This document shows, one piece after another, positions 12,052 through 29,989 of a stretch of 64,000 nucleotides of DNA. Below the pieces are notes generated by a model that saw nothing but the letters and a program-made list of their open reading frames with translations, made no database searches and was not told where the DNA came from. This stretch comes from Actinoplanes cyaneus (GTDB lineage Bacteria; Actinomycetota; Actinomycetes; Mycobacteriales; Micromonosporaceae): the NCBI RefSeq assembly GCF_016862095.1, contig NZ_BOMH01000041.1, positions 1 through 64,000 of the forward strand, in the 5' to 3' direction. The translations under genes were made by a program, and so were the position numbers. The stretch's first letter is position 1, and every line of letters starts with the position of its first letter.

Positions 12052-12233
12052 GGCGGCGATGATAGGCAGGCGTCGCACGGGCGCGGGGAACCTGTTCGCA
12101 TACCTGACAGCTTTCTAACGATCTCCGTCCACGCTCGTCGCCATGCAATCGAAGGCTGACGCCCCGACCGAAGTGCTCACCCCGGCGCCGGAGCCGCCAC
12201 CACGCCGGCGCGGCCGGGGGCCTGGTCCTGATC

Positions 12234-13280
12234 GTGGCAGTGGGCGGCACGACGGTCGCGGTCCTGCGGCACCGCCCGGACGGCGAGCCGGTCGCGCAGC
12301 AGAGCACGCGGGTGGCGACCGTGAAGCTGGAACGGCGGGACCTGTCGACGACGAAGAAGCTCGACGGCAGCATCGGGTTCGGGACGGCCCGGCCGCTCGA
12401 CGGGCACGCGACCGGAACGGTGACGTGGTTGCCGGCGGCCGGTGCGACGATCAGACGCGGTCAGCAACTGTTCCGCGTGGACGACAAACCGGTGGCCTTG
12501 TTCTACGGGAGCATGCCGCTGTTCCGGACCATCGGGGTCGCCGGGACGGCCGGTCGCGACGTCCGCATCGTCGTGGACAACTTGAAGGCGCTCGGCTACC
12601 ACGTCGGCCCCCAGCCGGCACCGGGCGAGAAGGCGGCCCCCACGCAGGTGAAGGTCAGGGACGGCGAGGGCGTCCTGACTCCCGGGCTGGTCAAGGCGAT
12701 CAAGAAGTGGCAGGAGGATGCCGGCCGCCCGCCCACCGGTGAGATCGCGGTCGGTGACGTCGAGGTGCTGGCCGGCGCCGTCCGGGTCGACTCGACCGCC
12801 GTGCAGCCCGGATCCCCGGCGAACGTCCCGCTCATGTCGGTCACCCCGACCCGCAAGGTGATCACCGTGGCGGCGGGGCTGAGCGAGGCCGCCGGCCTGC
12901 GCCGCGGTGACAGGGTCACCGTGACGCTGCCCGACGACCGTACCGTCAAAGCCCGGATCCTGGCGGTCAGCCGCACCCCGGTGGCGCAGGACGGTGTCGC
13001 CGGCGCCGAGCCGAAGCTGACCGTCTCGGTGACCGTCGACGACGCGAAGGCGATCGACCGCCTCGACGGGGGCGACGTGGCCGTCCACGTCACCGGCAGG
13101 ACGGCCCGGGACGTGCTGGCGGCGCCGATCGAGGCGTTGATCGCGCTGAGCGAGGGCGGTTACGCGGTGCAGGGCCCGTCCGGGCTGGTCGCGGTCACCA
13201 CCGGCATGTTCGCCGACGGCTTCGTGGAAATCAGCGGCGCCGGGCTCGCCGAGGGCATGGATCTGGTGGTGGCGTCGTGA
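12234..13280 (+). CDS. Efflux adaptor (HlyD-like) with peptidoglycan-binding-like segment; N-terminus frameshifted
   Basis: A periplasmic-adaptor type protein, 348 aa in the open frame. It has a barrel-sandwich start ([21 protein letters not shown], later [29 protein letters not shown]), an inserted peptidoglycan-binding-like segment ([19 protein letters not shown]) and beta-barrel strands ([21 protein letters not shown]). The natural start appears to be ATG 12143, giving a Pro/Arg-rich leader that should run into the membrane anchor [10 protein letters not shown]. That anchor is in the next frame; one extra G in the run at 12216-12220 explains it. Its stop overlaps the ATPase start (GTGA). 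It links an ABC exporter to the cell envelope. Confidence 0.82.
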
Positions 13281-13936
13281 GCGTGCTGTCCGTACGCGAT
13301 GCGGGAATGTCCTATCCGGGCGGCGTGACCGCCCTGGCCGGCGTGAGTGTGGACATCGCCCGCGGCGAGCTGGTGGCGATCGTCGGCCCGTCCGGCTCCG
13401 GCAAGTCGACCCTGCTCAACATCATCGGCACGCTGGACCGCCCGACGACCGGCACGGTCCTGATCAACGGTCAGGACGTGGCGACCCTCAGCGACCGCCG
13501 GCTGTCCGCGCTGCGGGCCCGCGAGATCGGCTTCGTCTTCCAGCAGTTCCACCTGACCGACGGCCTGACCGCTGTGGAGAACGTCGCCACCGGCCTGCTC
13601 TACGCCGGGGTCCCCCGTCGCCGGCGGCGCGAGCGGGCCCTGTCCGCCCTCGCCCGCGTCGGCCTGGCACATCGGGCCGGGCACCAGCCGCACCAGCTCT
13701 CCGGCGGTGAACGGCAGCGGGTCGCGATCGCCCGCGCCCTGGTCAACCGGCCGTCGCTGGTGCTGGCCGACGAGCCGACCGGAGCCCTGGACACCGCCAA
13801 CGGTCAAGCGGTGCTGGCCCTGCTGCGCCGGCTCAACGAGGAGGGCAGCACGATCGCGCTGATCACCCACGACCGGGACATCGCCGCCTCACTGCCGCGC
13901 CGCATCGAGATCCGCGACGGGCGGCTGGTCCCGTGA
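13277..13936 (+). CDS. ABC transporter ATPase, MacB/LolD type
   Basis: A 219-aa ATPase: Walker [11 protein letters not shown]-loop FVFQQFHL, signature LSGGERQR, Walker [13 protein letters not shown] and switch His in LITHD. Such ATPases drive mechanotransmission-type exporters with FtsX-like permeases that move lipoproteins, peptides or antibiotics. It sits between the adaptor gene (4-base overlap) and the permease gene (46 bases after the stop), so the three form one exporter. Confidence 0.95.
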
Positions 13937-13982: not shown

Positions 13983-15152
13983 GTGAGCCCGCTGGATCTG
14001 CTGGATCTGGGGCTGATCGGGCTGCGGACCCGGCCGGGCCGCGCCGCGCTCTCCGGGCTCGGCATCGCGATCGGCATCGCCACGATGATCGTCGTGACCG
14101 GCATCCCGGCGTCCAGCCAGGCCGCGCTGGTCGCCCGGCTGAGCGCGCTGGGCACGAACACGCTGCAGGCCATGGCGGTTCCGGACCTGAATCCGCCGGC
14201 CACGTTGCCCGAGTCCACGGTGGAGATGGTCCGCCGGATCGGCCCGGTCACCAGCGGGAGCGCGGTCGCCAACACCCATGCCGTGGTACGCCGCAACGAC
14301 CGTCTCGACCCTCGCGACGGCTCCGGCCTGACCGTGCTCGCCACCCGCCGGGACCTGCTGCCGGTGATCAACGCGCACGTCCGTACCGGAGCCTGGCTCT
14401 CCTCCGCGACGGAGAGGTTCCCCGCCGTGGTGCTGGGGTCGGTCGCCGCGGAACGTCTCGGCGTCACCGACGTGTCCGGCAAGCCGCAGGTCATGATCGC
14501 CGACCGGGCGTTCACCGTCGCCGGCATTCTCGCCACCACGCCGCTGACCCCTGACATCGACCGTTCCGTCCTGGTGGGCTGGCCGGCCGCGAAGTCCGAA
14601 CTCGGCTTCGACGGGCACCCGACGGTCCTCTACGTGCAGGCCGAGGAGGACCGGATCGAGGCGGTCCGCGGGGTGCTGGCCGCGACGATCTCCCCCGAGC
14701 GGCCGGGCGCCGTCATGATCACGCGTCCGTCGGACGCCCTGACCGCGAAACGCGCCGCCGAGAGCAGCTTCTCGGTGCTGTTCCTGGCGCTGGCCGGGGT
14801 GGCCCTGGTGGTCGGCGGGATCGGCGTCGCCAACACGATGGTCGTCTCGGTTCTCGAACGCCGCTCGGAGATCGGGCTGCGCCGTGCGCTGGGCGCCACC
14901 CGCGGCCAGATCCGTGGCCAGTTCCTGACCGAGTCGGTGATCCTGGCCGCGGCCGGCGGTCTGATCGGCGCCGCGCTGGGCGTGCTCGCGACGGTCGGCT
15001 ACGCGAGCTGGCAGGGCTGGCCGGTGGTGCTGCCGGCGCAGTCGGCGGCGCTCGCAGCGGGCGGCGCCGTGGTGATCGGCGTGCTCGCCGGGGTGTATCC
15101 CTGTGTCCGCGCGGCGCGGCTGACCCCGACCCAGGCGCTGGCGGCGGTCTGA
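13983..15152 (+). CDS. ABC transporter permease, MacB/FtsX family
   Basis: A 389-aa permease: one N-terminal membrane helix (about 20-45, RAALSGLGIAIGIATMIVVTG), a large extracytoplasmic MacB-like domain (to about 260), then three helices in the FtsX domain, with the signature VLERRSEIGLRRALGATRGQIRGQFLTESV between the second and third from the end. GTG start with GGAGG upstream. With the preceding ATPase and adaptor it forms a MacAB-like exporter, probably controlled by the divergent two-component system. Confidence 0.93.
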   Translation: MSPLDLLDLGLIGLRTRPGRAALSGLGIAIGIATMIVVTGIPASSQAALVARLSALGTNTLQAMAVPDLNPPATLPESTVEMVRRIGPVTSGSAVANTHAVVRRNDRLDPRDGSGLTVLATRRDLLPVINAHVRTGAWLSSATERFPAVVLGSVAAERLGVTDVSGKPQVMIADRAFTVAGILATTPLTPDIDRSVLVGWPAAKSELGFDGHPTVLYVQAEEDRIEAVRGVLAATISPERPGAVMITRPSDALTAKRAAESSFSVLFLALAGVALVVGGIGVANTMVVSVLERRSEIGLRRALGATRGQIRGQFLTESVILAAAGGLIGAALGVLATVGYASWQGWPVVLPAQSAALAAGGAVVIGVLAGVYPCVRAARLTPTQALAAV

Positions 15153-15161
15153 CCCGAGCCC

Positions 15162-16187
15162 TCAGCCGAGCAGGTCTCCCAGCGTCAGCCCACCGACCTC
15201 CGACGGCGCGGGCAGCCCGCGGAACCGGACGAGGTCGGCCACGGAGCCCACCTCGTCGCGGGCGGCGGCGCCCCACCCTGCGTCCTCCAGTTCCCGCCGC
15301 ATCCCCGCGGCCACCCGCTTCTGGTCGGCGTGGGTCAGCCCGGGGTGGGTGAAGATGGCGACCAGCAGGTCCTGCCGCAGCCTGTCGAAGCGGCCGGTCT
15401 CGTTGCGCAACTGGGCCTCCTTGGCCTCCCGCACCAGCTCGTCCAGCTCGGGAAAGGTCCAGTCGTCGCGTTCCCGGGTCGTCTGCAGCTCCAGGACGAG
15501 GTAGTCGGTGCCGTCCAGCGGACCTCCGTCGAGGCGCAGCTGCCCGCCGGCCAGATCCAGCCGGCTCACGTCGAAGTCACGGGCCGGCCGGTTGATCACC
15601 GCGAGGTGGCCGGGGGTGAGCCGGTCGGACGTGCCGCCGGTCAGCGCGTACTCCTTGTCCAGCACCAGCCGGGGGCCGTCACCCACCTCGTCGATCGCGG
15701 ACTCCACCTTGTCGATGCCCTTGGCCACCTGTTCGCCGAGTTGCGCCAGGGCCGGGATCGTCGGCGCGGCCACCGAGGCGAAGACGCCGAGCACGTCGAG
15801 GGCCAGGCGCAGCGAGTCGTTGGCCTTCACCGCGTACAGGCAGGCCTGGATGCCGACACTGCCGCCGGTGTACGGCACCCAGCCGGTCAGGCTGCCCGAG
15901 CGCGGACCGGGTGCCTCCTGCCCGGGCGGGGCCTGTACGACGGCCGACGTGGTCACCCGCGTGCCGTCGAGGTCCATCGTGACCGAGCAGCGCAGCGCCG
16001 GGAACACGTCGGCGGCCCGGACCCGGGCGTCGGCCAGGAACATGTCGGTCAGCCAGACCCGGACGTAGGAGTCCCGGACGATCGGCGCCGTCGTGCCCGG
16101 CGCCGCGGCGAAGTGGTAGACCAGGTGTTCCGAGGCGCGGCCCCACCAGCGGCTGACGCGGCGTCCCAGGTCGTCGAGCGCGGTCAT
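15162..16187 (-). CDS. Hypothetical protein, last gene of the protease/NTPase operon
   Basis: A 341-aa soluble protein that I do not recognise. It starts at ATG 16187 inside a four-base overlap with the stop of the 1551-aa NTPase gene. The first 120 residues are beta-rich (DSYVRVWLTDMFLADARV, then CSVTMDLDGTRVTTSAVVQAPP); the middle has a hydrophobic stretch LRLALDVLGVFASVAAPTIPALAQL that could be a buried helix or one membrane segment; the C-terminal 120 residues are charged and helical. There is no signal peptide. Strict coupling with the three upstream genes implies a subunit or substrate of the same system. Confidence 0.8.
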   Translation of the reverse strand: MTALDDLGRRVSRWWGRASEHLVYHFAAAPGTTAPIVRDSYVRVWLTDMFLADARVRAADVFPALRCSVTMDLDGTRVTTSAVVQAPPGQEAPGPRSGSLTGWVPYTGGSVGIQACLYAVKANDSLRLALDVLGVFASVAAPTIPALAQLGEQVAKGIDKVESAIDEVGDGPRLVLDKEYALTGGTSDRLTPGHLAVINRPARDFDVSRLDLAGGQLRLDGGPLDGTDYLVLELQTTRERDDWTFPELDELVREAKEAQLRNETGRFDRLRQDLLVAIFTHPGLTHADQKRVAAGMRRELEDAGWGAAARDEVGSVADLVRFRGLPAPSEVGGLTLGDLLG

Positions 16188-19100
16188 GCGTCCTCTCCTT
16201 CGGTCAGGAACAGCACGGCGTGCTGAGCGGAGTCGCCGGCCAGCTCGCACCTCAGGTCGCGAGCCAGGTCGACGAGTTCGAGCGGCGTCGGCGCCGTGCC
16301 GCGGGCGTCCAGTGCGGCGCTGCGCTCGGCGATCCACTGCTGGACGGTCGCGGTGGACTCGGTCGCCAGCAGCACGTTGCGGGTTCCGGCGTCCATGCAG
16401 CGGACGGCGAAGCGCAGGGCATCGACGTCGCGTACCGGTGCACCGCCGGCCGATTCGGCGGTGACCGCCACCTGGAGGACGATCAGGTCCGCGCCCAGGG
16501 CGGCGATCTCCTCCGGGGTGCGGCGGGTCACCTCGGGCGGTCCGGTCTGGAACACCGCCCGGGTCCGCACCGGCTCGCCGACCAGCCGGACCACCCGCTG
16601 GGGGCCGGGCCGGTGCGGTGGCTCGCCGGTCCGGTTCCACGGCCGGTACCAGCCGGCGGCGGTCTCCCGGGGCGCAACGCCGAGCCGGTCCATGATCTCG
16701 GCCTCCCAGAAGCGGACCTGATCGCTCGGGTTGACCAGCAACCGGGTGACCAGCCGGGATTTGCCGGGCGCCCGGAACGCCTCGCGCATCGACGGGGGCA
16801 GGTCCGGGACCTCGTCGCCGGGGCCCAGCTCCACGGTCCCGCTGGCCCGCGGCGTCAGGATCCTGCGGCGGAGCGATCCGTCGCCGGTTCCGCCGCCGGT
16901 GGCCAGCCAGTCGGCCGGCACGCCGTCCACCGAGATGGTCAGCTGGCGGGACCGGGGCGTGATCCGGAAGGTGATGCGGGGGTTCACCGCCGCCCGCACG
17001 GCCTTCCTGACCCAGGCCAGCTGCACGCGCCAGCCGACTCGTGGCACCGGGGTCAGCTCGGTGGCGGCCGTCTCGGTCAGCTCCCGCGGGGCGTGCACCC
17101 CGAAGGCCGCCGGATACAGCTCCACGGAACCGTCCGCTCGCGCCGGCGCCACCGGCCCCGGCAGGCCCCGTGCCCGGGCCAGGCCGGCGACGGCGACCCG
17201 GATCCGCGCCAGCCAGCCGGCCCAGGCCGGTGGCGACGTGTCGGCCTCCACCAGGCTTGCCCACTCGGGAAGCTCCTCCGGCGCCGGCAGGTGCTCCCGC
17301 ATCCGCTCGTACGCCGTGTTGAGGCTGAGCACGGCCGCCTTGGCCGCCGCGCGGGCCGGCGGTTCGCCGGTGTGGACCAGGGCGAGTGCCCGCAGCGTCA
17401 CCGCCTGCAGGGCGAGCACGGGGTTGCGGGCCTCGGCGCAAGCGGCGGCGAGTTCCAGCAACGCGTACGCGCCCCGCGGGTCGCGCAGCGCTCGCTGCTC
17501 ACCGAGCTCCAGGGCGATCAGGGCGACACACAGCGGCGGCACCCGGTCCAGGAGAGCCTTGCCCAGCCGGCCCAGTTCCTCCGGTCGCGCGGCGGCGAGC
17601 AGGGGCCGCACCGTGGTGAGCACGTCGTCGCCGGACGGCTGCGGCAGGCCGCGCTCGTGCGTCAGCGACCAGGCCGTCAGCCGTGCCGTGCCCGGCCCGC
17701 CGCCGACCGCGGCGACCTCCGCGGCATCACCGCTGAGCAGGCCGGCCAGCAGTGGATCGTCGCCGGCCGCGGTCAGGTCGGGCGGCTCGGGGACGAGCGC
17801 GAGGCCGCTGCCGGGGTTGACGCTGGTGGCCTGCCAGCGCCGGTGCCAGCGCCACGGCGAGGCGCCGTCCTCCGGGGTGTCCCGCGGCGGCGGGTCGCCG
17901 TCGATCAGGGCGGCCGCGATCCACGCCCGTCCGGCCCGGTCCTCGTCGGCCACCGCGTACATCACCGCCCGGTCGCGCATCCGCCGGGCCAGATCGATCA
18001 GGGCCGCACGCGCGGCGCCGGCCTCGATCCGCCAGCCCGCGGCCCGCGCCTGCCGGATCGCGGCGAGCCGCTGCTCGAGAAGCAGGCGAGCCCGGTGCGG
18101 GGCGCCGAGCATGAACAGTCCGTGGCTGACGGTCACGAACAGCGGCCGGATGCTCGTATGCAGGCGCAGGCGTGCCGGGTCGCGCAGCCGGGCCGTGGCG
18201 TACGACAGCATCCGCTCCAGATGTTCGGCCGGGACCGTTCCGTGGCCCAGGCGCAGCGCCAGGCATTGCGACAGCAGCCGGTCCGCGTCGACCCAGCCGC
18301 GGTGTGCTTGCGCCTCCGCCTCCCAGGCCGGCAGCGGCAGGGCGAGCAGGGGTCCGCCGTTCTCGTGCGCCTGCCTGGCCTGGAACAGGTAGAGGCGCAG
18401 CAGCCCGCTGGGCGGGGCGAGCCAGTCCGCCCACCTGGACCGGTGGGTGGCGGTCCGCCGGACGGCCCGTTCGTCGGTGGTCCGCAGCGGACACCGGTCG
18501 CCGTCGAGCCGGGCCAGGCAGACTCGCAGCGTGGCGTCGACGACCGGGTCCGCGGTGATGGTCTGCCACTCCCGCACCGAGGCCACCAGCTCGGACCGGC
18601 CGGCCTCGGCGGGGTTGCCGTCGGCGACCGCCTCGATCGCCGCCGCGACACCGCCGTCGAGCTTGCCCGGGAACCGCGCGGCACGCCGCAGCAGAACGGT
18701 CACGTCGCCGAGCCGCTCCGGCAGCTCCCCGGCCGCGATCTCGCCCAGGCCGGCCCGGATGTCCAGCCGGTCGGCGACGTCACCGGCCCGCCCGCTCAGG
18801 CTCGCCCGGATCGCCCGCCACTCGCCGGCCCGGTCCAGCTCCCGGCCGGTCCGTGCCGCGGCGGCCAGAGCCGTGGCTCGCACGGCCGCGCCGAGCAGGA
18901 CGTTGCCGGCCAGCCCGTCGTCGCCCTCCGGGACGCCCGGCGGCTCGGCGATCACGCCGAGCAGCCGCGGGCACACCCGCTCGATCCATCGCCAGTCGGC
19001 GGGCTCGGTCGTGCGGCCCTCGACCTGCTCCCAGAGCACCACGGCGCCGGCCGGGCGGGCGAGCCGGAGCGTGCAGAGCAGCTGTGCCGTGCTGATCTCG

Positions 19101-20839
19101 CCGAGCTCCCGGGTGCGGATCTGTTCGGCGAGCTCGACGACCAGCGTCTCCCGTGCCCGCCACAGCCGGGTCTCCTCGTGGCTGCGGCACCAGTCCAGCA
19201 GCGCGCGGCGCAATTCCTCGTCGACGTCGAGGATCAGTGAGCCGCTCGCCGGGTCGGTGTCGGTGTCGGTCCAGTCCTGCCGGGCCAGCTCGGCCAGCAC
19301 CGCCGCCGCGTCGGTGCCCGCCGGCAGCGCGGGCGCGAGCATGAACTCGTCGAACCGGCCGAGCAGTGCCACGGCCGGCAGGCAGGCGAGCAGCTCGGGG
19401 CTGAGCCGCTTGACGATGCGCGCCTCGACGTAGGCGAGCCGGCCGGAATCGCGCAGCGCGTCGGCGGTGATGCTCTTCTCGGCCACCCACCACTGCCGGT
19501 AGAGGGCCAGGTCGTACGGGCTGAAGCGGCGCTCCCGCGGGTCCGGCTCGCCCCGCTCCGGTGACAGCTCGAGCACCAGCTCGACCAGGTCCGGCGTCAT
19601 CCGGTCGGAGCCGTCCGGGCGGGTGAGGAAGGTCAGCGCCTCGGCCTGCCGGAAGCCTCGCGCCGGTAGGATGGTCATACCGTGCCACTCGGGCTGCCGC
19701 GGGTGCAGGCGGCGGCGGCCGGACAGCAGCACCCGCACCCCGGGCACCGCCGCGTGCACCCGGCCGAGCAGGTCGAACATCATGTCCACCGCGGCGTCCG
19801 GAGCATCCGCCGGGTCCAGGCGTGACAGTTCCTCGCAGGTGTCGAGCATCAGCAGTACGGGCCGGCCGAGCGCCGTGAGCAGCGCGGCGAAGCATCGCAC
19901 CGCCTCGTCGACCGGGCCGCCCGACGCGTTCGCCGAGCGGGCCGCGGCGTAGCAGTCCATCAGCGCCTGTTCGCCGGCCGCGTCGTCCGCCTCGGCGGCC
20001 AGCTCGTCGGCCAGCTCGACCAGCAGCTGCGCCGGGCTGCCCGCCGGGTACGCCGGGCTGACGTGGTCGAAGTCGACCCGCGCGGCGGCGATCCGGGTCA
20101 GGCCGTTCTCCCGGGTGAAGCCGCCCGCGGTCACGTACCTGATGAACGAGGTCTTCCCGGTTCCGCCGGGACCGACCAGATGCATGGCCCAGGCGGTGCC
20201 GTCGTCGCGGCGCAGCAGGTCACGCAGGGCCGCGGCCCACTCCGGGCGCGGCTGGAAGTCACGGAGTGCCTTCGCGTCGTCGCTGCGGCGATTCGCCAGG
20301 TGCAGCAACCGGTGGGCGGCGTCGATGGCGTCCCGCAGCGGGACGGCCGCGATCGGTTCGGCGGTCTCCGCCGCCGTGATCAGATCGGCCGCCGCGGTTC
20401 GTTGATCGGTCCGGCACAGGCTGCGAACCATACCGAGGAAGGCCAGGTCGGGTCGGTGCTCCCGGTCCGCGCGGGCGATCTCGACCCAGTACTCCATCAC
20501 CGGGGCGAACGGCAGGTCGAGGACCGCCTCGGCGAGCCGGTCCGCGATCAGCCTGGCCTGCGCGACGACCGCCGGCCCGCCGAGCTCGGCCACGGCCGCC
20601 CGCAGCTCGTCCGCCTGCCGGTCGGGCGGGGACCAGAACTCCACCATGGCCATGCGCTCGGGGCGCAGCGCACCGCTGCGCTGAGCACGTCGCTGCTGTT
20701 CCGCGTCGGCGATGAACGTGCTGAGCCGTTCGCCGAACGGCGTGGCCGGCGAACCCGGCACCGGGAAGCCGGCCACCTCCGCCGCCTCGCCCGTCCAGTA
20801 CGGCAGCAGGGCGAGCCAGAGCATGGCCGGGTCGCTCAC
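16184..20839 (-). CDS. Large P-loop NTPase (1551 aa) of the protease-associated operon
   Basis: Starts at GTG 20839, overlapping the CHAT gene stop by four bases. Residues 1-215 are helical and unassigned. A STAND-like ATPase follows: Walker A GPGGTGKTS (223-231), Walker B PVLLMLDTCEEL (327-338), sensor strand VRVLLSGRRRL. Residues from about 560 to 1180 are a long run of helical repeats, as in TPR or similar superhelices. After a beta-rich region, the last 110 residues (ADLIVLQV, then LRFAVRCMDAGTRNVLLATES and a helix) resemble the end of a CHAT-type domain without catalytic residues; that likeness is weak. It probably acts as the sensor or switch of the operon. Confidence 0.85.
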   Translation of the reverse strand: MSDPAMLWLALLPYWTGEAAEVAGFPVPGSPATPFGERLSTFIADAEQQRRAQRSGALRPERMAMVEFWSPPDRQADELRAAVAELGGPAVVAQARLIADRLAEAVLDLPFAPVMEYWVEIARADREHRPDLAFLGMVRSLCRTDQRTAAADLITAAETAEPIAAVPLRDAIDAAHRLLHLANRRSDDAKALRDFQPRPEWAAALRDLLRRDDGTAWAMHLVGPGGTGKTSFIRYVTAGGFTRENGLTRIAAARVDFDHVSPAYPAGSPAQLLVELADELAAEADDAAGEQALMDCYAAARSANASGGPVDEAVRCFAALLTALGRPVLLMLDTCEELSRLDPADAPDAAVDMMFDLLGRVHAAVPGVRVLLSGRRRLHPRQPEWHGMTILPARGFRQAEALTFLTRPDGSDRMTPDLVELVLELSPERGEPDPRERRFSPYDLALYRQWWVAEKSITADALRDSGRLAYVEARIVKRLSPELLACLPAVALLGRFDEFMLAPALPAGTDAAAVLAELARQDWTDTDTDPASGSLILDVDEELRRALLDWCRSHEETRLWRARETLVVELAEQIRTRELGEISTAQLLCTLRLARPAGAVVLWEQVEGRTTEPADWRWIERVCPRLLGVIAEPPGVPEGDDGLAGNVLLGAAVRATALAAAARTGRELDRAGEWRAIRASLSGRAGDVADRLDIRAGLGEIAAGELPERLGDVTVLLRRAARFPGKLDGGVAAAIEAVADGNPAEAGRSELVASVREWQTITADPVVDATLRVCLARLDGDRCPLRTTDERAVRRTATHRSRWADWLAPPSGLLRLYLFQARQAHENGGPLLALPLPAWEAEAQAHRGWVDADRLLSQCLALRLGHGTVPAEHLERMLSYATARLRDPARLRLHTSIRPLFVTVSHGLFMLGAPHRARLLLEQRLAAIRQARAAGWRIEAGAARAALIDLARRMRDRAVMYAVADEDRAGRAWIAAALIDGDPPPRDTPEDGASPWRWHRRWQATSVNPGSGLALVPEPPDLTAAGDDPLLAGLLSGDAAEVAAVGGGPGTARLTAWSLTHERGLPQPSGDDVLTTVRPLLAAARPEELGRLGKALLDRVPPLCVALIALELGEQRALRDPRGAYALLELAAACAEARNPVLALQAVTLRALALVHTGEPPARAAAKAAVLSLNTAYERMREHLPAPEELPEWASLVEADTSPPAWAGWLARIRVAVAGLARARGLPGPVAPARADGSVELYPAAFGVHAPRELTETAATELTPVPRVGWRVQLAWVRKAVRAAVNPRITFRITPRSRQLTISVDGVPADWLATGGGTGDGSLRRRILTPRASGTVELGPGDEVPDLPPSMREAFRAPGKSRLVTRLLVNPSDQVRFWEAEIMDRLGVAPRETAAGWYRPWNRTGEPPHRPGPQRVVRLVGEPVRTRAVFQTGPPEVTRRTPEEIAALGADLIVLQVAVTAESAGGAPVRDVDALRFAVRCMDAGTRNVLLATESTATVQQWIAERSAALDARGTAPTPLELVDLARDLRCELAGDSAQHAVLFLTEGEDA

Positions 20840-23163
20840 GATCGGCTCCACACGCCGCTGCACCACTCGGCCAGCAGCGCCTCGTCGTTGTCGGCCTCCA
20901 GGACGTGCTCACCGTTCTTGACGATGCGGCGCAGCAACTCGAGGGAGAAGATCTTCTCCTTCTCCTCGTCGCCGATGTCGTCGTACTGGCGCTGTGCGAG
21001 CGCCCGCCATTGCTCCTCGGCCTGGGCGTGGGCCCGTACCGTCCACGCCTTGGCCAGTTCGCCGGTGCTCTCCGTCGGGCTCATCAGCAGGGTCCGCCAC
21101 GCCGCGAGGTGACAACCGTCGCCCCGGCGTTCGGCCATCTCCGGAAACAGCAGCAGCTCGGCGGTGGTCGCGTACCGGCTGCCGAGAAACGCTCGGGTCA
21201 GCCGGGACTCCCCGCAGGTGGAACGCTGCGCGGGGTCCTTCGTGAACATCACCACCGGGATCTTGTACGTGTTCTCCGACGCCCTCTGCTGCATCGCCCG
21301 CAGCCCCGCCGCGTCCAGCATGGCGCTCAGATAGTCGAAGGGGGCGTCGAAGCGATGGAGGTTGTCGATCAGGATCATCGGCCCCAGGTCGTCGGGGAAC
21401 ATGTCCGGGTGCTCCCGGTGGACGTCCCGCAGCAGGGCCAGCAGGTCCTCGCGCAGGTAATCACCGAGGTCCTCGGCGCTGAGATCGTCCGGGTCGGCGT
21501 CGCCGGCCAGGTTGCGCAGCCGCCGGGCCAGCGAATCGGTCTTCGAGCGGACCCGTTCGGTGATGGTGTCCCGCTGGGGCTGGGGCACCTCCTCCCACAA
21601 CGCCTCGACCACGGTGCTGCGGAACCCGGCGCCGAGGCCCAGGCACGCCCGGGTCTTCGCGATGGCGGTGACGATCTCCAGGGCGAACTGGGCCGCGTTG
21701 CGCGGCTCGCGTCCGCGGGCGAACGGGCCGACGACACACGGGATCCGCCCCGCCCGCAGGCCGGCCGCGGCGAACTCGTCCAGCAGCCGGGTGCCGCCCG
21801 GCCGTTCCCGGCCGCGTGCGGCTTCGGCCAGCAGGATCGCCAGGTCCCGGCGGGGATCGAGCAGATCCGTGAGCAGGTCGAAGAACTCGTCACGACCGTA
21901 GAAGACCGGCCGGAGCATGAACCCGAACCTGGTCATGAACTGCCGCAGCTTCTCCGTCCGGCTGACGTCGACGACCTGGAAGCCCACGCCGACGGAGGGG
22001 CCGACGAAGACCGCCGGCAGAGCCCAGTCGAGCGGGCGGTCCTCCGCGCTGCCCAGCCGGTAGGCCGCCGCCATGCGCGCCGCGGCCGTCGCCCGGGCCA
22101 GCGGGCGCCCTTCGAGGACGGCCTGGGCCAGCGCCCGCGCGAAGTCACGGCACGCGAGATGCGAGATCCGGCCGGTCATCGCCACGACGACGGGAATGCC
22201 AGCAGCCACCAGCTCCGCCGCCATCGGGTTCGCACCCTCGCCCTCGGACGGCTCGCGGCGGTGCCGGGCCGGCTCCGTGTAGCCGAGCTCGCAGGCGCTC
22301 AGGATCACCATCAGCGGTGGCCGCTCACCCTGCCGCAGCGCCCACGCCAGCTGCGAGCCGTCGACCGCCTCGGCGCCGTCGGCCCCGGCCCGCTGCCCAC
22401 GTTCGGCGCGCAGATCGACGGTGCTGCGGCCCAGTTCCGGACGCCAGCTGCCGTGCCCGATCAGGTGCACCACGTGCGGCGTGAACTGCCGGCACTGATC
22501 GGCGAGCGTGTTGAGGGTCAGCTCCGGTCTCACCCGTACGTCGAGCAGGCCGTTGCCCTGGTGATGGCCGCGGATCACCCCCATCACCTCGGTGCCGGCC
22601 CGGATCTGCGCGTCGTGCAGCCGGCTGCCGACACCGAAGAGCAGGCGCGGCACCTCGACGATCGGCTCGGCCGCCCGGGTGGACCCGGATGCCGCCACCT
22701 GCCGCAGGATCAGGACCGGCCGGGCGGTGTCCAGCGCCAGGAAGGTGCGCGCCTCCCCCCGCTCGTGCAGCAACTCCCAGTGGTGCCGGTGCAGATCGGT
22801 GTCGTCCGCGGCGAAGTCCAGGACGATCTCGGGGAACTCCGCGGTGTCGAGCAGCGCCCGCAGTGCGTCCCATTCGTCCTCGCCGTCGCCGAGCAGGGAG
22901 TCGAGCAGATGACAGCCGTAGGTGATGGCATCGGAGGCGTCCGGTGAACGGTCACCGCAGCCGAGGACCAGGTCGGTCAGGGAGACGAAGGTAGCGGTGT
23001 CGGTCCGCGGGTCGCTGTCCGCGGGAATCGGCCACCACCGGTCCCCTGCCACGCCCGCCGGCATCGTGCGCTCGTAGAGCGTCCCGGAGTCGGCGCCCAC
23101 CACGACCGTCCAGCCCGGATCCTCCGGTGACCGCGTGCGCCGGGCCGTGACCACGATCCTCAC
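20836..23163 (-). CDS. CHAT-domain caspase-like protease fused to a degenerate NTPase-like domain
   Basis: 775 aa, GTG start overlapping the metalloprotease stop. Residues about 110-400 are a CHAT domain: the WELL strand (HHWELLHERG), the catalytic His in HLIGHG (H237) and catalytic Cys in VILSACELG (C291), then AGIPVVVAM and the closing AYRLGSAEDRPLDWALPAVFVG. Residues 420-640 look like an AAA/STAND ATPase (FYGRDEFFDLL to the Walker B strand PMILIDNL), but the Walker A equivalent GRERPGGT has Gly in place of Lys. So protease residues are intact and nucleotide hydrolysis is doubtful. CHAT proteases are known from gasdermin and CRISPR-linked (Craspase) defences; the target here is unknown. Confidence 0.88.
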   Translation of the reverse strand: MRIVVTARRTRSPEDPGWTVVVGADSGTLYERTMPAGVAGDRWWPIPADSDPRTDTATFVSLTDLVLGCGDRSPDASDAITYGCHLLDSLLGDGEDEWDALRALLDTAEFPEIVLDFAADDTDLHRHHWELLHERGEARTFLALDTARPVLILRQVAASGSTRAAEPIVEVPRLLFGVGSRLHDAQIRAGTEVMGVIRGHHQGNGLLDVRVRPELTLNTLADQCRQFTPHVVHLIGHGSWRPELGRSTVDLRAERGQRAGADGAEAVDGSQLAWALRQGERPPLMVILSACELGYTEPARHRREPSEGEGANPMAAELVAAGIPVVVAMTGRISHLACRDFARALAQAVLEGRPLARATAAARMAAAYRLGSAEDRPLDWALPAVFVGPSVGVGFQVVDVSRTEKLRQFMTRFGFMLRPVFYGRDEFFDLLTDLLDPRRDLAILLAEAARGRERPGGTRLLDEFAAAGLRAGRIPCVVGPFARGREPRNAAQFALEIVTAIAKTRACLGLGAGFRSTVVEALWEEVPQPQRDTITERVRSKTDSLARRLRNLAGDADPDDLSAEDLGDYLREDLLALLRDVHREHPDMFPDDLGPMILIDNLHRFDAPFDYLSAMLDAAGLRAMQQRASENTYKIPVVMFTKDPAQRSTCGESRLTRAFLGSRYATTAELLLFPEMAERRGDGCHLAAWRTLLMSPTESTGELAKAWTVRAHAQAEEQWRALAQRQYDDIGDEEKEKIFSLELLRRIVKNGEHVLEADNDEALLAEWCSGVWSRS

Positions 23164-24527
23164 CAGCTGTCACTTCGCAGGTCGGCAAGGACGGACTCGG
23201 CCGCCGCGGCGATGCCCTTGGCGATGGCGGCCGGCGCCGAGGTGCGTACGCGGGTGGGCCCGCACCGGGGCACCAGCTCCAGCATCCGGCGGTTCACGGT
23301 GGCGATCCGGTCCGGCGCCGGCCCCTCGGGGTCGGCGGCCAGGACGAACCAGGCCAGCGTCCCCCCGGCTGCGCAGAGCCGCGCGGACTCGGGGCGGCGC
23401 CGTGGCAGCGGCTCGGCCCGCGCCAGCAGGGCCTGCCGCCAGGAGAGTGCCGTCTGCTGCCAGCCGGCCGTGGCGAGGCCGATGCGGCGCAGGCAGGTCG
23501 TGCCCAGCGGCAGGTCGAGCAGGGCCTCGGCCACGCCGGTTCCCAGCGAGACCAGGTCCCGGGCCCGTGGATGGCGGTCGAGCAGCCTGGCACGCGTTCC
23601 GGTGACCGGGTCGGCGACACCGAGCCGGCTCGCCACCGCGTCGGCGAGCAGCCAGCGCACCAGCGGCGGCGGGTACCGGCCGGTCGACGGCCCGGGCGCG
23701 AGCAGGGTGTCGTCATCGGCCAGCTCGAGCTCGGCCACCGACCACGCCGGCGCGCTGCCGGCCAGCACGACGGCGAACGCGTCCGCGAACAGCTCCGCCG
23801 ACCAGCGCGCCCAGCGCGTGCGCTCCTCGCGGCCGGCGCCGGCCCGGTCCACCGCCTGCTCTGCCGCCGTGACCAGGCTGTCCACGGCGTCGCCGGCCCG
23901 GAACAGCTCCGCGTGCACGTGGTGGCCGGCCTCGTGGACGGCCAGGATCAGCCACCACGGCCGGGTCAGCACGGCGACCGGCAGGGTGATCGTGGCGATC
24001 GGCATCCGGGCGGTCCAGGTCGCGACCATCTCGTCGGCGGGGGCCTTGAGCTCCCACGGCACCTCGGCGCGGGCGAGGGCGGTGGGCACGTCGACGTCGG
24101 CGACGGCGGTCAGCGGCACCGGCGGCACGTCCGCGCCGCCGGCGGCGGTGAACACCTCGTGCCAGCTGCTGCGGACGATCTCGTCCGCCGCGGCGAGGGT
24201 ACCGGCGTGCGGGCTGCGCGCGTACTGGTCCAGGCGGTCGGCGTACCAGCGCCAGAACCGGCGGATCCGGACGACGCGCAGGTCGGCCCGGCGGCACTCG
24301 GTGTAGACCTCGCCCTGCGCCCGTCCGGTCGTCTGGTCCAGCAGCCACTCCCGGACGCCGAGCAGGGCGGCCGTGGTGACCTCCTCGATCGCCTGGAGGT
24401 GGTCGCCGTGCCGGTCGTCGGCGTCATGCCGGCGTGTTGCCGACACCCAGGTCAGAATCTCGTTGCGCAGGCCGTCGAGTTCCCCGAGGGAATCGTCCAG
24501 CCGAATTCGCGTCATGGTGTCCCGCAC
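23160..24527 (-). CDS. Predicted zinc metalloprotease (HEAGH), first gene of the operon
   Basis: A 455-aa soluble protein. The motif AVHEAGHHVH (His198, Glu199, His202) is a gluzincin/HExxH zinc site, and Glu245 in WSAELFADAFAVVL, 43 residues on, is a good third ligand. Around it the sequence is helical and fits no peptidase family I can name. The start is probably GTG 24527, because a -10-like TATGGT ends six bases upstream (leaderless); an ATG four codons in is possible. Its stop overlaps the CHAT gene. With two predicted proteases in one operon, a proteolytic relay is possible (inference). Confidence 0.8.
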   Translation of the reverse strand: MRDTMTRIRLDDSLGELDGLRNEILTWVSATRRHDADDRHGDHLQAIEEVTTAALLGVREWLLDQTTGRAQGEVYTECRRADLRVVRIRRFWRWYADRLDQYARSPHAGTLAAADEIVRSSWHEVFTAAGGADVPPVPLTAVADVDVPTALARAEVPWELKAPADEMVATWTARMPIATITLPVAVLTRPWWLILAVHEAGHHVHAELFRAGDAVDSLVTAAEQAVDRAGAGREERTRWARWSAELFADAFAVVLAGSAPAWSVAELELADDDTLLAPGPSTGRYPPPLVRWLLADAVASRLGVADPVTGTRARLLDRHPRARDLVSLGTGVAEALLDLPLGTTCLRRIGLATAGWQQTALSWRQALLARAEPLPRRRPESARLCAAGGTLAWFVLAADPEGPAPDRIATVNRRMLELVPRCGPTRVRTSAPAAIAKGIAAAAESVLADLRSDSW

Positions 24528-24846
24528 GCCGCGACCATAGGGTCACCCGGACAGGGGAATGACGTCCTGTTTGTGCGTTGCCCAGTCCCCCGACAATCAG
24601 TTCCGCACTTCAGTGGTCGCCATTTCGGGCCATCCGTGACGACTATGAGACAGCAATTGCCTCGTCATCCCGGTAAAACACAGGTCCCATGCAATTGCGG
24701 CCCGTCCGCCGGGTCGCCGATGACCTTGCGGGCACGACGGAATGGACGAACTATGGCCACATGCGGCTCGTATACGCCATCATGAAGACCCACGGGACCG
24801 GCGGGGCGCCATCCGGCATCGTCGATCGGCCGAGCGGAGGGCATTC
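24528..24846. promoter_or_regulatory. Divergent promoter region of the protease/NTPase block
   Basis: A 319-bp gap between oppositely directed genes, clearly richer in A and T than its surroundings. Minus strand: TATGGT at 24534-24539 is a likely -10 for the metalloprotease gene. Plus strand: TATACG at 24771-24776 is a possible -10 for the STAND genes, giving a leader of about 65 bases. I see no strong palindrome and no credible gene inside. Confidence 0.45.
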
Positions 24847-27201
24847 ATGATCCGACGACTCGAAAGCCGCTCGATCATCGATCTTCGCGCCAGACATGGA
24901 GTTTTCTCACGACGTCTCGTGGACGTGGTCATTGCAATTTGCATGGTCACCGGATTTGTTCTCACGATGATCCGGATGGTGCACGCGCCGAGCCTGGCCC
25001 GGTGGTCGATGGCGGCGATGGTCGTCTCGACGACCGCAATGATCCTCATCATGGTCGGGCCCGAGCGGAAACGGTTACGGCGATCGTGGCGGGGACGTGC
25101 GCGCCGCGATTACCTGGCGCCCTCCGAGCTGGCCGCCCTGCCCCCGATCTTCGTGGGTCGCGCCAGGGAGAAGCAGGACCTGATCGATTTCCTCACCACG
25201 CGCACCGGGGACGCCCCGCCCGTCGCCGTCCTGGTCGGCCCGTACGGGATCGGCAAGTCGTCCCTCGCCGCGGTGGTCGCGACCGAACTCGCCCAGCGGT
25301 CGATCGGCGGCACCCTGGTCGCGGACCTGAGCCGGCGGCGCGGCCCGGACGGAGCCGACCGCAGCGACGACGACATCGTCGACGACGCGCTCAAGGTGCT
25401 GATCACGGGTTTGAAGTCGGCGCGGGAGCAGGTCGCCCCGACCGTCGACGCCCGCGTCGGGCAGTATCACGCGCTCACCCGCAAACACGGCGCGATCATC
25501 GTGCTCGACGACGCGGACACTGCCGAGGTGATCGCCCGGCTGCTGCCGGCCTCGCCCCGGTGCCCGGTCATCGTGACGACCGCCGACCCGGGGTTGACCG
25601 AGAACAGGTCGTGGCGATCGTTCCCGCTCAAGCCGCTCGGCGAGGAGCAGTCGATGGAGTTGCTGCGCAAGCTGATCTCGGCGACCTGGACCAATGACGA
25701 CGAGACCTGCCGCCGCATCGCCACCGGCCTGTTCGGCCACCCCAACGCCATCCGGCTCACCGCCACGCAACTGGCCTGCCGTGAGGACTCCGGGGTGGAC
25801 GCGTTGAGCCGGATCTACGCCGACCCGGCCACCGAGCTGTCGGCCCGGCGGCTGCGCCGGCGCGAGCAGCCGGTCACCACGCCGTGGGCGCCGACCTTCA
25901 ACGTGGCCCTGCAGGTCAGCTACAACCTGCTCGGCGACGAGGAGAAGCTGGGCCTGCGCATGATCGGCTACCTGGACCGACCGGCCTTCCCGGCCTGGAT
26001 GCTGTCGAGCCTGCTGGACGCCGACAGTGCGCAGGCCACCCGGGTGCTGGACCGGCTCTCGGTGGCCGGCTTCCTGACCCGGACCAGCGCCGACGCGGTG
26101 GGCGTGCCGGTGCTGCGGGTCAACGAGGACGTGCTGCACTTCGCGCGCAGCAAGTTCGAGGAGGACAGTCGCGCCTCGGATCGCAGCCGCCTCGACGACC
26201 GGATCCGCACCCGCAAGGCCGACCGCAAGCAGACCGACGTCCAGGCATGCGTGGCCACCGCCCGCCGGCAGATCGCCAGGGGGGACGTCGACGGGGCGCT
26301 CGGCACCGCCCGGCGCGCGGTGGATCTGGCACGCGAGGACGACCGGGAGAGCCATCACGCCGACGAGGGTCTCGCCCTCGCCACCCTGGCGGAACTGCAC
26401 ATGGAACTGGGCGCGGCGGGGCCCACCCACGACCTGGCCACCGCGGTGCTCGACCGGCGGGAACGCAACGGCGCCGTCGCGTGGCAACGGGCCCAGCGCT
26501 GCGCTGCCCGCCTGGCCCGCCGTACCCGTCGGCGCCAGGACGCCCTCGACCTGCTCGTGCCGATCGTGGACACCGCGAACGCCGCCGACCCGGGCGAGGC
26601 CGAGGAGTTGGTGCTGGCCCTGCTGGAGATGGTGGTGCTGGACAGCCAGGGCGGCCCCGAGGACCAGAGCCGGGCCTGGCGGAACCTGAAGTGGGCCACC
26701 CGGGTCTGCGCCGGGCTGCCGGACGAGGGAGTGGTCCTGCAGACCTATCTGTGCCGCACCCGCAGTTACATCCTGCAGGCCGCCGGGAAGCTGGACGCGG
26801 CGGAGCAGGCGCTGGTGGAAGCCGAGCGGTGGGCGCTGCGGCGCGCCGAGCGGCTGAGCCTGGCCTGGACCGCGTACCGGCGGGCCATGCTGTTGCGGGC
26901 CGGTGACGACCCGGCGACGGCGACCCGGCACGCCCGGGAGGCACTGCACGCCTTCGGCGACATGGGACATCGGTACGGCCGTGCTCGCGCCGCCCGGCTG
27001 CTGGGTGACATCCATGCCGACGCGCTGAACGCGGAGACCGAACCGGCGGCCGAGCCACATCGGCAGCGCGCGGTCATGTGCTGGATCGAGGCCCGCGACG
27101 GCTTCACCGCCTGTGGCGACCTCGCCGAGGCGGCCGAGGTGAAAGCGCTGCTGGACAGCATGGTCCCGGATCGCAGGCCGACCCTCGCCGGGCAGGCATG
27201 A
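24847..27201 (+). CDS. Membrane-anchored STAND NTPase with helical repeats (784 aa)
   Basis: Starts at ATG 24847 after GCGGAGGGC. Two membrane helices (about 25-44 and 53-70) are followed by an Arg-rich linker and an NB-ARC-type ATPase: FVGRAREKQDL, Walker A GPYGIGKSS (131-139), Walker B GAIIVLDDAD, then a winged-helix-like section (QVSYNLLGDEEKLGLRMIG). Residues from about 440 on are helical TPR-like repeats. The layout, membrane anchor then STAND switch then repeat sensor, fits a receptor whose oligomerisation is triggered by a ligand. It overlaps the next gene by four bases and is divergent from the protease operon. Confidence 0.86.
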   Translation: MIRRLESRSIIDLRARHGVFSRRLVDVVIAICMVTGFVLTMIRMVHAPSLARWSMAAMVVSTTAMILIMVGPERKRLRRSWRGRARRDYLAPSELAALPPIFVGRAREKQDLIDFLTTRTGDAPPVAVLVGPYGIGKSSLAAVVATELAQRSIGGTLVADLSRRRGPDGADRSDDDIVDDALKVLITGLKSAREQVAPTVDARVGQYHALTRKHGAIIVLDDADTAEVIARLLPASPRCPVIVTTADPGLTENRSWRSFPLKPLGEEQSMELLRKLISATWTNDDETCRRIATGLFGHPNAIRLTATQLACREDSGVDALSRIYADPATELSARRLRRREQPVTTPWAPTFNVALQVSYNLLGDEEKLGLRMIGYLDRPAFPAWMLSSLLDADSAQATRVLDRLSVAGFLTRTSADAVGVPVLRVNEDVLHFARSKFEEDSRASDRSRLDDRIRTRKADRKQTDVQACVATARRQIARGDVDGALGTARRAVDLAREDDRESHHADEGLALATLAELHMELGAAGPTHDLATAVLDRRERNGAVAWQRAQRCAARLARRTRRRQDALDLLVPIVDTANAADPGEAEELVLALLEMVVLDSQGGPEDQSRAWRNLKWATRVCAGLPDEGVVLQTYLCRTRSYILQAAGKLDAAEQALVEAERWALRRAERLSLAWTAYRRAMLLRAGDDPATATRHAREALHAFGDMGHRYGRARAARLLGDIHADALNAETEPAAEPHRQRAVMCWIEARDGFTACGDLAEAAEVKALLDSMVPDRRPTLAGQA

Positions 27202-29288
27202 GCAGCGCAACGGTCTCCTCGCGGCAGCGCCGGACTGTCACCCTGGTCCTTCTCACCCTGCTGTTCGCCACCGCGTTCTGGCCTGGACGCCTGCACTGGA
27301 CCCTCGTGCTGTCGTTGCAGGCGCTGCTCGCCGTCGTCACCCTGACCCTCCTGGTGCTGTCCCATCTGCGCTCCGGCCGGCCGGCCGGGACGGTCACGCG
27401 GGCCGTCACCCCGGTGTTCGTGGGGCGCGAGGACGCCATCCGCGACATCCGGAAGCAGTTGTGCGATCGCCCGGCCGAGGCGGTCAACGCGATGCCCGCG
27501 TCGGTGCTGATCCACGGCATGCCCGGGGTGGGCAAGTCGGCGCTGGCCGAAGCGGTCGCCCACCGCCTCGAGCGTGACTACCCCGACGGGCTGGTCGTCG
27601 TCAGCCTCGACGACTCCACCGGGCCGGTGGCCGGCCGGGACGCGCTGACCACGGCGCTGCGCCTGCTGGGCTGGGACGAGCGGGAGCTGCCACCGGGGAC
27701 CCCCGAACGGGTCAGCATCTTCCGGGCCTTCACCGCCACCAGACGCATCCTCTTCGTCTTCGACGCCGCCCGGGACCCCGCCCAGCTGGCCGAGGTCCTG
27801 CCCAAGACCGGCGGGTGCGCGGTGATCATCACCAGCCGCCGCAACCTCGGCCCGCAGCTGGGCATCCGATCGTACGGATTGCCGCCGCCACCGCCGGCCG
27901 AGGCGCTGGCCATGTTCCACGCGATCGCCTCACCCGGCGGCGGCCTGCCGAGCATGGAGGCGACCACGCGCCTGGTCGAGGCCTGCGGACGGCTGCCCGC
28001 GGCGATCCAGACGCTGGCCACCCGGGTCGTCTACGACGAGCTGGACCTGGACGAGATCACGGAGCAGGCTCAGGCCACGGCGTTGCTGGGGTGTGCCGGA
28101 TCCGACCCGGCCGCCGCCGTGCCGGCGGGCATAGCCGCGGAGTTCGGCCGGCTCAGCCCGCTCGAGCGCCGAGCGATCTGCCTGCTCACGCTCGTGCCCA
28201 CGGCGTCGTTCGGCTCCTGGGTGCTCGGCCCGCTGGCCGGCACGAGCGCGTCGGCCGGCGATGTGGTCGCGACCGAGCTCGCCGGGGTCAGGCTGCTCGA
28301 GCCCGCCGGGCGTGACGACCACCTCGGCCTGGCCCGCTACCGTTTCCACCCGCTCGTGCGGGCCTACGCCGAGGCGCAACTGGCCCAGGATCCCAGCCTG
28401 GTGGTCGACGGCCATGCGGCGCTCGATCGGCTCGCCGCGGCCTACCGGGAGCTCGCCGTGGAGAAGGAGAACAGCGGCGAGCCGGTCCTCGCCGACGATC
28501 ACGACCCGGAGCTGGACTGGCGGCTGACCGCGATGCTCGCCGAGCCGGTGCCGGACATCCGCGTCGAGCGGATCCGGATCCATCTGATCACCGGACGGTA
28601 CGACGCCGCCGAGACGCTGCTCACCGAGCTCGCCGGGACCGTGCCGGCCGTCCCCGACGATCCGCGTCAGGACCTGCTCGCGCACCTGACCGCGGCCGAG
28701 ATCTACGCCGAGTTGCGCTGGCCGAAACGCGCGGCGAAACACCTGGGCCGCTGTCGTGCCCTGCTCGCCCACGAACCGGACGCGGCGCTCTTCGCCCGGG
28801 TGGACGTGGCAGCGCAACTCACCGACTCGGACGTGCTCGGCGGGGAGGCCACCGACGAGTACCGCAAGACGCTGATCGTCGCCTCCCGGCTGCTGGCCGC
28901 CGACGACCCCGGCGAGGCGATCATGATCCTGGCCCGTTCCGCCCGGCGGGAACAGGACGATCACCGCCAGGTGGTGACGCACGAGCGGCTGGCGCACGCC
29001 TACCTCGCACTGTGCGAGGCAGGGCACGACAACGACGTCCGGCCGCTGGATCGGGCCGGACATCACGCGATGCTGGCCGTGCTGGCCGCCGAACGGCTCG
29101 GGGACCGGTGGCGCCAGCAACTGGGCCGGCTGGCACTGGCCCGGGCGCTCGCCATGGCCGGCCACCGGCAGGAGGCGACCCGCCAGGCGACCCTGGCCCT
29201 GGCCACCGCGCCCGACGCGGCGACGCCGGTCCCGCCGTACCTGGACGAGGGGCGGGGCTGGGTCAGGGAGGCCAAACTGACCGGCTGA
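27198..29288 (+). CDS. Membrane-anchored STAND NTPase with helical repeats (696 aa)
   Basis: Starts at ATG 27198 in an ATGA overlap with the previous gene. Two membrane helices (about 13-30 and 34-55), then an NB-ARC domain: VFVGREDAIRDI, Walker A GMPGVGKSAL (107-116), Walker B RRILFVFDAARD, sensor GCAVIITSRRNLG, GLPLA-like motif as GRLPAAIQTLA. A winged-helix-like part (LSPLERRAICLLTLVP) leads into TPR-like repeats. It has the same architecture as its neighbour but low similarity outside the motifs, so the two are an old duplication and may form a mixed complex. No effector domain is visible. Confidence 0.86.
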   Translation: MSSATVSSRQRRTVTLVLLTLLFATAFWPGRLHWTLVLSLQALLAVVTLTLLVLSHLRSGRPAGTVTRAVTPVFVGREDAIRDIRKQLCDRPAEAVNAMPASVLIHGMPGVGKSALAEAVAHRLERDYPDGLVVVSLDDSTGPVAGRDALTTALRLLGWDERELPPGTPERVSIFRAFTATRRILFVFDAARDPAQLAEVLPKTGGCAVIITSRRNLGPQLGIRSYGLPPPPPAEALAMFHAIASPGGGLPSMEATTRLVEACGRLPAAIQTLATRVVYDELDLDEITEQAQATALLGCAGSDPAAAVPAGIAAEFGRLSPLERRAICLLTLVPTASFGSWVLGPLAGTSASAGDVVATELAGVRLLEPAGRDDHLGLARYRFHPLVRAYAEAQLAQDPSLVVDGHAALDRLAAAYRELAVEKENSGEPVLADDHDPELDWRLTAMLAEPVPDIRVERIRIHLITGRYDAAETLLTELAGTVPAVPDDPRQDLLAHLTAAEIYAELRWPKRAAKHLGRCRALLAHEPDAALFARVDVAAQLTDSDVLGGEATDEYRKTLIVASRLLAADDPGEAIMILARSARREQDDHRQVVTHERLAHAYLALCEAGHDNDVRPLDRAGHHAMLAVLAAERLGDRWRQQLGRLALARALAMAGHRQEATRQATLALATAPDAATPVPPYLDEGRGWVREAKLTG

Positions 29289-29313
29289 GCCTCCGATTCA
29301 CTGGGTACGGCGC

Positions 29314-29862
29314 TCACTTCCTCGTCGCCGCGGTCGCCCGCTCGCAGCCTGGGATCAGGTCCATGCCCATCGAGATGGATCGCGCGTCGTTGTCGTCGCC
29401 GCCGAGCGCGATGCTGATCCCGTCGTCGCTGACCTCGACGTACTTCACGCCCTTGCCTTTCAGGCACTTCACCACGTCCCTCGCGAAGTCCTTGGCCTCC
29501 GGGTTCGCCGGGTCCTTCTCCCACGGCGGCAGCGGGAAGTACTGCGGTTCGCAGATCCGGTTCGCCTCGTCGAACTTCGCCACCTCCTTCTCCGACGCGG
29601 GTTTGGGCGCGCCGCCCGCGGCGGCCGCGGATCTCGACATCCCGCCGTGCTCGGCAATGCATTTGTTGTACGGCGCGAGCATCGCCTCGTACTCCTCGGG
29701 CGTGGTGTCCAGGCGCTCGCGCGGGCGATGCGACTGCGGTGAGGCGGACACCGCCGCCGACGGGCCGGCCAGCGTCGCCACCTCCGGCGCGGTGGCCTCC
29801 TTCGCCGGGCTGCACGCGGACAGCGCCAGCATTGCCACCACCAGAACCAGAGTTTTCCGCAT
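29314..29862 (-). CDS. Secreted lipoprotein, hypothetical
   Basis: A 182-aa protein with a lipoprotein signal: MRKTLVLVVAMLALSAC, with lipobox LSAC. The ATG at 29862 has AGAGGAAA upstream. The mature part has four cysteines besides the lipidated one (CIAEHGG, ICEPQYFPLPPWE, VVKCLKGKG, GCERAT), probably two disulfides. I recognise no family. It is anchored on the outer face of the membrane. It is divergent from the diguanylate cyclase gene and converges on the STAND genes. Confidence 0.78.
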   Translation of the reverse strand: MRKTLVLVVAMLALSACSPAKEATAPEVATLAGPSAAVSASPQSHRPRERLDTTPEEYEAMLAPYNKCIAEHGGMSRSAAAAGGAPKPASEKEVAKFDEANRICEPQYFPLPPWEKDPANPEAKDFARDVVKCLKGKGVKYVEVSDDGISIALGGDDNDARSISMGMDLIPGCERATAATRK

Positions 29863-29989
29863 CGATGTGTTTCCTCTCATCTGCCGACGGGTCGAGGAGG
29901 AAGCATTCCGAGCGGTCGTTTGGAAATGGTCAGGATTCGGCGACGGCTGCCGATCGGTGGGTTACGTGCCCGCGGACACCGGAAGGCCC

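Follow-up and report, generated by a model that had tools for sequence, protein, structure and literature searches.

Six genes of Actinoplanes cyaneus form one conserved unit that is gained or lost together. They lie within the first 64,000 nucleotides of contig NZ_BOMH01000041.1 (assembly GCF_016862095.1, forward strand), the stretch referred to here as the window. On the minus strand they encode a zincin-like metalloprotease (MP), a CHAT protease, a giant NTPase and a protein without a Pfam family, here called U; on the plus strand follow two membrane NTPases of the STAND type, STAND1 and STAND2. The CHAT protein, the giant NTPase and MP recur as a core in six actinomycete genera, and the set possibly serves in biological conflict.

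The minus-strand genes are transcribed in the order MP, CHAT protein, giant NTPase, U. At sequence level each start overlaps the stop of the gene before it by four bases: GTGA at 23160-23163 (CHAT start, MP stop), GTGA at 20836-20839 (giant start, CHAT stop) and ATGA at 16184-16187 (U start, giant stop). STAND1 and STAND2 are joined in the same way (STAND2 start, STAND1 stop; ATGA at 27198-27201). The genes, their coordinates and their overlaps agree with a first-pass annotation made from the letters of the window. Codon-position GC favours coding in five of the six genes, and for U in separate gene calling. Genes were called with a GC-based script at a minimum of 80 aa, which shorter genes escape.

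All six genes were found in the same divergent arrangement in A. flavus (locus L002) and in genome G208 (locus L027), at ~40-57% protein identity to the window over the best segments and 35% in the C-terminal segment of the giant NTPase. Among 12 Actinoplanes genomes tested, a STAND1 orthologue is present in exactly these two carriers, and the STAND2 search returned the same two at E<1e-90, the next best match being at 5.5e-34. Neither the FtsX-type permease gene nor the lipoprotein gene that flank the module in the window was found in the module stretches of A. flavus and G208 (~20 kb each), so the module occupies another site there; in both it adjoins a 311-aa gene that is 95% identical between them.

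The site itself was examined through the permease gene, which 60 of the 67 Actinoplanes genomes carry at E<=1e-60, counting that of the window. In the six best matches (83-88% identity) out of the 59 other positive genomes, the block is missing in all six, with the matched permease and lipoprotein stretches 23 to 100 bases apart in five relatives and ~1.43 kb apart in the sixth (L152). Since the ~14.2-kb segment between the flanks holds the six genes and no further gene of at least 80 aa in the gene calls, and is missing there in these relatives, it was gained or lost as one. Two further carriers and the joint absence in six relatives bear on the question raised with the first-pass annotation, whether the six genes stay together, and make their association more than chance. 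No terminal repeats were seen at the block ends (longest match 9 bp in the stretches compared).

Table 1. Genes and other features of the module and its borders, in window coordinates
Feature	Position	Strand	Description
U	15162..16187	-	341 aa; prediction: C2-like beta-sandwich (~36-238) interrupted by an amphipathic helical hairpin (~125-168), then a helical C-terminal region
Giant NTPase	16184..20839	-	1551 aa, start GTG at 20839; P-loop domain of AAA_16/NACHT-like type, then a long middle and a C-terminal region without predicted fold
CHAT protein	20836..23163	-	775 aa; CHAT protease domain ~117-383 (H237/C291); C-terminal STAND-like half without Walker-A lysine
MP	23160..24527	-	455 aa zincin-like metalloprotease; HEAGH 198-202, downstream WxxWxxExxAD-type motif (E245)
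Divergent (putative promoter) region	24528..24741		plus-strand element CCTGTTTGTsCGT, common to all three Actinoplanes carriers
STAND1	24742..27201	+	819 aa; two predicted membrane segments, NB-ARC NTPase
STAND2	27198..29288	+	696 aa from ATG at 27198; two predicted membrane segments, NB-ARC NTPase
Inserted block	15153..29316		between FtsX-type permease and lipoprotein genes; missing there in six related genomes
FtsX-type permease (flank)	13983..15152		
Lipoprotein (flank)	29314..29880	-	

Distribution of the core in actinomycetes

Searches with MP gave hits in 15 of 250 genomes of the family (E<=1e-3) and in 13 of 394 genomes of the class (E<=1e-8), those with U in 7 of the 250 and in 10 of the 394 actinomycete genomes. 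The distribution in the family is thus patchy: seven of the 15 MP-positive genomes carry the core, seven have hits elsewhere, and in G152 the retrieved stretch contains no more of the module than fragments of MP and U. Reading the neighbourhoods of MP and U hits, we detected 13 loci in six actinomycete genera at which CHAT and giant NTPase genes are adjacent with MP beside them: the window, L002, L027, L028, L029, L030, L033, L052, L055, L056, L057, L058 and L079. G555 and G429, where contigs end, stand outside this count. MP was placed by the class search together with the neighbourhood reading in G287, G410 and G480, and by the MP search alone in G454, where the gene caller missed it. In a plasmid collection neither MP nor the giant NTPase had a match.

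U is present at 10 of the 13 core loci, either within the operon, convergent at the 3' side of the giant NTPase gene, or in the forms seen in G122, where one U stands in an MP-U pair and another is fused to the giant NTPase as a single 1820-aa protein. At L029, MP and one U are convergent to the CHAT-giant pair. Among the 394 class genomes, MP reaches E<1e-90 in eight, each of them also with U, and U is found in 10 altogether; the corresponding Fisher value of 3e-15 overstates the evidence, because seven of the eight MP carriers belong to one genus. G466, G637, G499, G305 and G522 fall short of this MP threshold, and only in G522 do CHAT and giant NTPase genes lie beside MP.

Several observations weigh against a strict unit. 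Three core loci (L030, L033 and L079) lack U, and at L030 a frame change interrupts the MP gene. In G644 an MP gene stands alone, with no module gene recognised nearby. A separate clade of MP genes belongs to other operons, one of them with genes for a trypsin, an M20 peptidase and a ParA-like protein. The idea of a recurrent protease/NTPase module holds, with the amendment that other genera have a four-gene core without the STAND genes or, where U is lacking too, CHAT, NTPase and MP. The STAND pair was found only in the three Actinoplanes carriers and, judged from these gene contents, looks like an Actinoplanes-specific addition to the core.

The proteins and the wider U family

The catalytic residues of MP and of the CHAT protein and the P-loop of the giant NTPase, named in the first pass, are invariant among the aligned homologues. 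In MP, H198, E199 and H202 of the HEAGH motif as well as E245 and D249 are kept in 11 of 11 aligned proteins, the clade from other operons included, along with several further residues; the alignment comprises 11 of 14 MP genes or fragments and leaves out L030 (broken), L035 and the L037 fragment. With HExxH and a conserved downstream Glu, MP looks gluzincin-like. It has no acceptable Pfam or NCBIfam match, and a distant relative matches the Zn_peptidase and YpfJ models weakly. The lone MP gene of G644 looks intact and lies near genes that resemble the NTPase part of STAND2 (L158, 3303-15032). The operon with the trypsin-like peptidase, M20 peptidase and ParA-like ATPase (L031, 3807-12132) also contains several Pfam-less genes, and MP-related HExxH genes were noted in L034, L035, L036, L038, L076, L077 and L078.

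The CHAT domain (PF12770) reaches 75.2 bits where the Pfam cut-off is 24 (7.7e-21), and H237 and C291 are invariant in the 12 aligned CHAT proteins, a set that precedes the finding of L079. The first reading recognised this protease domain and overlooked the degenerate STAND-like half behind it. There the Walker-B Asp (D600) is kept in 12 of 12 proteins and the Walker-A Lys is lost in 10 of 12, so that this half resembles a switch turned adaptor. Its STAND assignment relies on two motifs recognised in the alignment, P-loop and Walker B; the hhalign comparison with the giant NTPase is weak (probability 4.5%), with the P-loop stretches aligned. In PADLOC 2.0.0 the CHAT domain matches SAVED_CHAT at 2.2e-4, the other matches being weak and to generic ATPases.

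The giant NTPase exceeds the AAA_16 cut-off of Pfam narrowly (33.5 against 32.6 bits). Its P-loop residues G235, G237, K238 and T239 (GxGKT) and the DTxEEL and GR motifs are invariant in 11 of 11 aligned proteins, from which L052, L053 and L054 were left out on account of truncated gene calls or contig ends. The P-loop, Walker B and a conserved Arg motif place it among the STAND NTPases. C-terminal membrane segments occur as a pair in four of 11 giants and singly in a fifth, and are lacking in the three Actinoplanes giants. Anchoring may thus come in different ways, which hints that it could be supplied in cis by the giant NTPase or, in Actinoplanes, in trans by the STAND pair. A second, dead CHAT domain at the C-terminus of the giant, considered since motifs look alike by eye, found no support at profile level (hhalign probability 0.42%). 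The comparison of giant C-termini left out L029 and L033.

For the overlapping plus-strand genes, the two hydrophobic segments each (59-77 and 88-106 in STAND1; 54-72 and 76-94 in STAND2, numbered from 27078) and the NB-ARC P-loop domain (25.7 and 29.0 bits, Pfam cut-off 23.5) agree with the earlier description, and the TPR-like repeats ascribed to them reach Pfam only below threshold. For STAND1 the start at 24742 was preferred to the 24967 of the GC-based caller, as residues 3-20 have conserved counterparts in A. flavus. The sequence element shared by the divergent regions of the carriers is a possible operator or promoter element.

U has no acceptable Pfam match and its family has no Pfam model. 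With a cyanobacterial member as query, 284 proteins were retrieved (E<=1e-3), of which the best 120 all lack Pfam domains; 82 of the 120 listed matches entered a deep alignment. A profile built from mixed U rows found at least 16 proteins. Members come from Actinomycetota, Cyanobacteriota, Chlorobiota, Bacillota, records named Hodarchaeota and others, so that the family reaches cyanobacteria and archaea. A C2-like beta-sandwich is tentatively predicted as the fold. Gasdermin is missing from the fold-match lists, an absence that excludes nothing. A role as membrane-spanning pore was also considered, and hydropathy across the family gives it no support.

Relatives of U adjoin a TPR-CHAT gene in L040, a caspase within a VMAP/MoxR island in Pseudanabaena, and a C1 (papain-like) peptidase in Sporomusa. 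A profile of the TPR-CHAT-type U had no match in 296 class genomes, a sample with no known positive, and two in 250 family genomes, one of them the U of the G208 module; the pairing with TPR-CHAT thus rests on one neighbourhood (L040). Queries of the U type had no match in phages and viral contigs, and two further U queries against plasmids returned only records already found. The Pseudanabaena island lies on a plasmid (L088, 1649-14085) and comprises VMAP-C, MoxR, an AAA-caspase protein, the U relative, a second caspase and an EAD10 NTPase.

Possible function and relation to described systems

CHAT proteases are recurrent executioners in prokaryotic immunity, and to our knowledge few of their partners have been described. 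With somewhat less than even confidence, we favour the view that the six genes are a conflict module (defence or programmed death) which is membrane-sensed, NTP-switched and protease-executed, U being the membrane-directed target or partner of the CHAT protein. We base this on the unit at empty sites, the recurrent core, the fusion of U to the giant NTPase, the invariant active sites, U relatives beside cysteine proteases, the tentative C2-like fold and the patchy distribution. The two membrane NB-ARC proteins would act as sensors of membrane disturbance and turn on the giant NTPase, which may assemble with the CHAT protein via the inactive STAND-like half of the latter. Activated CHAT protein would then cut U (and/or MP), or free U from the complex, and freed U could use its C2-like domain and amphipathic hairpin to act at the membrane. 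MP, the second protease, would either process U or the CHAT protein to maturity or add to the damage. As the presumed outcome, the affected cell would stop growing or die.

It seems unlikely, and deserves weighing all the same, that U stays uncut and serves as a C2-like adaptor tethering the CHAT-NTPase complex to the membrane, with the proteases cutting other targets. C2 domains are frequent lipid binders, U is fused to a giant NTPase in G122, and anchoring may vary among giants, with membrane segments in some and none in Actinoplanes. However, relatives of U adjoin other kinds of protease where no protein is annotated or recognised as this giant NTPase, which suits a substrate at least equally.

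Less probable again is regulated proteolysis for development or stress signalling, as with the AfsR-like STAND regulators. Many actinomycetes differentiate, and STAND1 and STAND2 resemble the NB-ARC part of AfsR (STAND2 at 2.5e-33; 115 bits against an NCBIfam cut-off of 1430). They share this NTPase core with the AfsR, HaaT and FxSxx TPR NTPases, but carry an N-terminal pair of membrane segments in place of the DNA-binding part and score far below the curated cut-offs. Patchiness, insertion as a block, the MP and U fragments in G152 and the U relative in a VMAP/MoxR island point to conflict instead.

A variant of a described system (VMAP/MoxR ternary, CATRA or FxSxx peptide-processing) appears very improbable. 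In line with the first-pass view, none of the six proteins is assigned to a known system in Pfam, PADLOC, NCBIfam or PHROGs, PADLOC 2.0.0 gave no convincing match to proteins of catalogued antiphage systems, and searches of the open-licence literature, which leaves out most subscription papers, turned up no paper recognisably describing the gene set. The nearest conflict systems appear, as far as the accessible text of these papers goes, in PMC7159879, PMC8195603 and PMC10907252, the last naming a CHAT-TIR protein as a diversified target; the word CHAT is absent from PMC7159879. The VMAP/MoxR ternary systems with their peptide-processing add-on are likewise actinomycete and combine NB-ARC-type NTPases, peptidases and zincins (PMC7159879, PMC8195603, parts available), zincin and NB-ARC-type NTPase being components that the module shares with the peptide-processing systems of section 24 of PMC7159879. 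Against this, none of the six proteins has a VMAP, MoxR, vWA, radical-SAM or CATRA domain in Pfam, and the NCBIfam FxSxx match concerns the NTPase part only, far below cut-off. By eye, none of 10 open reading frames of at least 20 aa in the block's only intergenic gap ends in FxSxx, a precursor elsewhere not having been searched for. That the genes are chance neighbours from two unrelated operons is scarcely credible: the core does occur elsewhere without the STAND pair, but the identical divergent arrangement in three Actinoplanes and the joint absence at empty sites contradict it.

In the Craspase system, Csx30 is cleaved. The type III-E CRISPR pair TPR-CHAT (Csx29) and Csx30 likewise joins a CHAT protease, a large sensor complex and a partner protein (PMC9729208, PMC10028731, as far as available); in contrast, the Actinoplanes module has no recognised CRISPR parts, its switch would be a STAND-type giant NTPase, and all 13 core loci have a zinc protease gene alongside.

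A bolder and rather doubtful proposal is that the proteins of the cross-phylum U family are membrane effectors of C2-like fold which are triggered by proteases and pair interchangeably with those of the CHAT, caspase and papain types, forming a class of prokaryotic death executors apart from the gasdermins, here wired to a switch of two proteases and three NTPases. Bacterial gasdermin genes also adjoin protease genes. The two families would be alike in that one partner family goes with several unrelated proteases and is predicted to act at the membrane, whereas the fold predicted for U is C2-like and includes a helical hairpin. The Pfam-less U family, with members next to proteases of the CHAT, caspase and papain-like kinds in distantly related phyla, is a concrete candidate that can be tested as their common target or partner; the compact Actinoplanes module is a suitable unit for such a test.

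Neighbouring genes in the window

The window has a GC content of ~0.72 and contains no tRNA genes. Before the FtsX-type permease gene, positions 9572-13936 hold a histidine kinase/response regulator pair, a Pfam-less gene and an ABC ATPase gene, and this DNA is also matched in the six relatives with an empty site. At the right border, a second, diverged copy of the lipoprotein gene lies adjacent in L151, L154 and L155.
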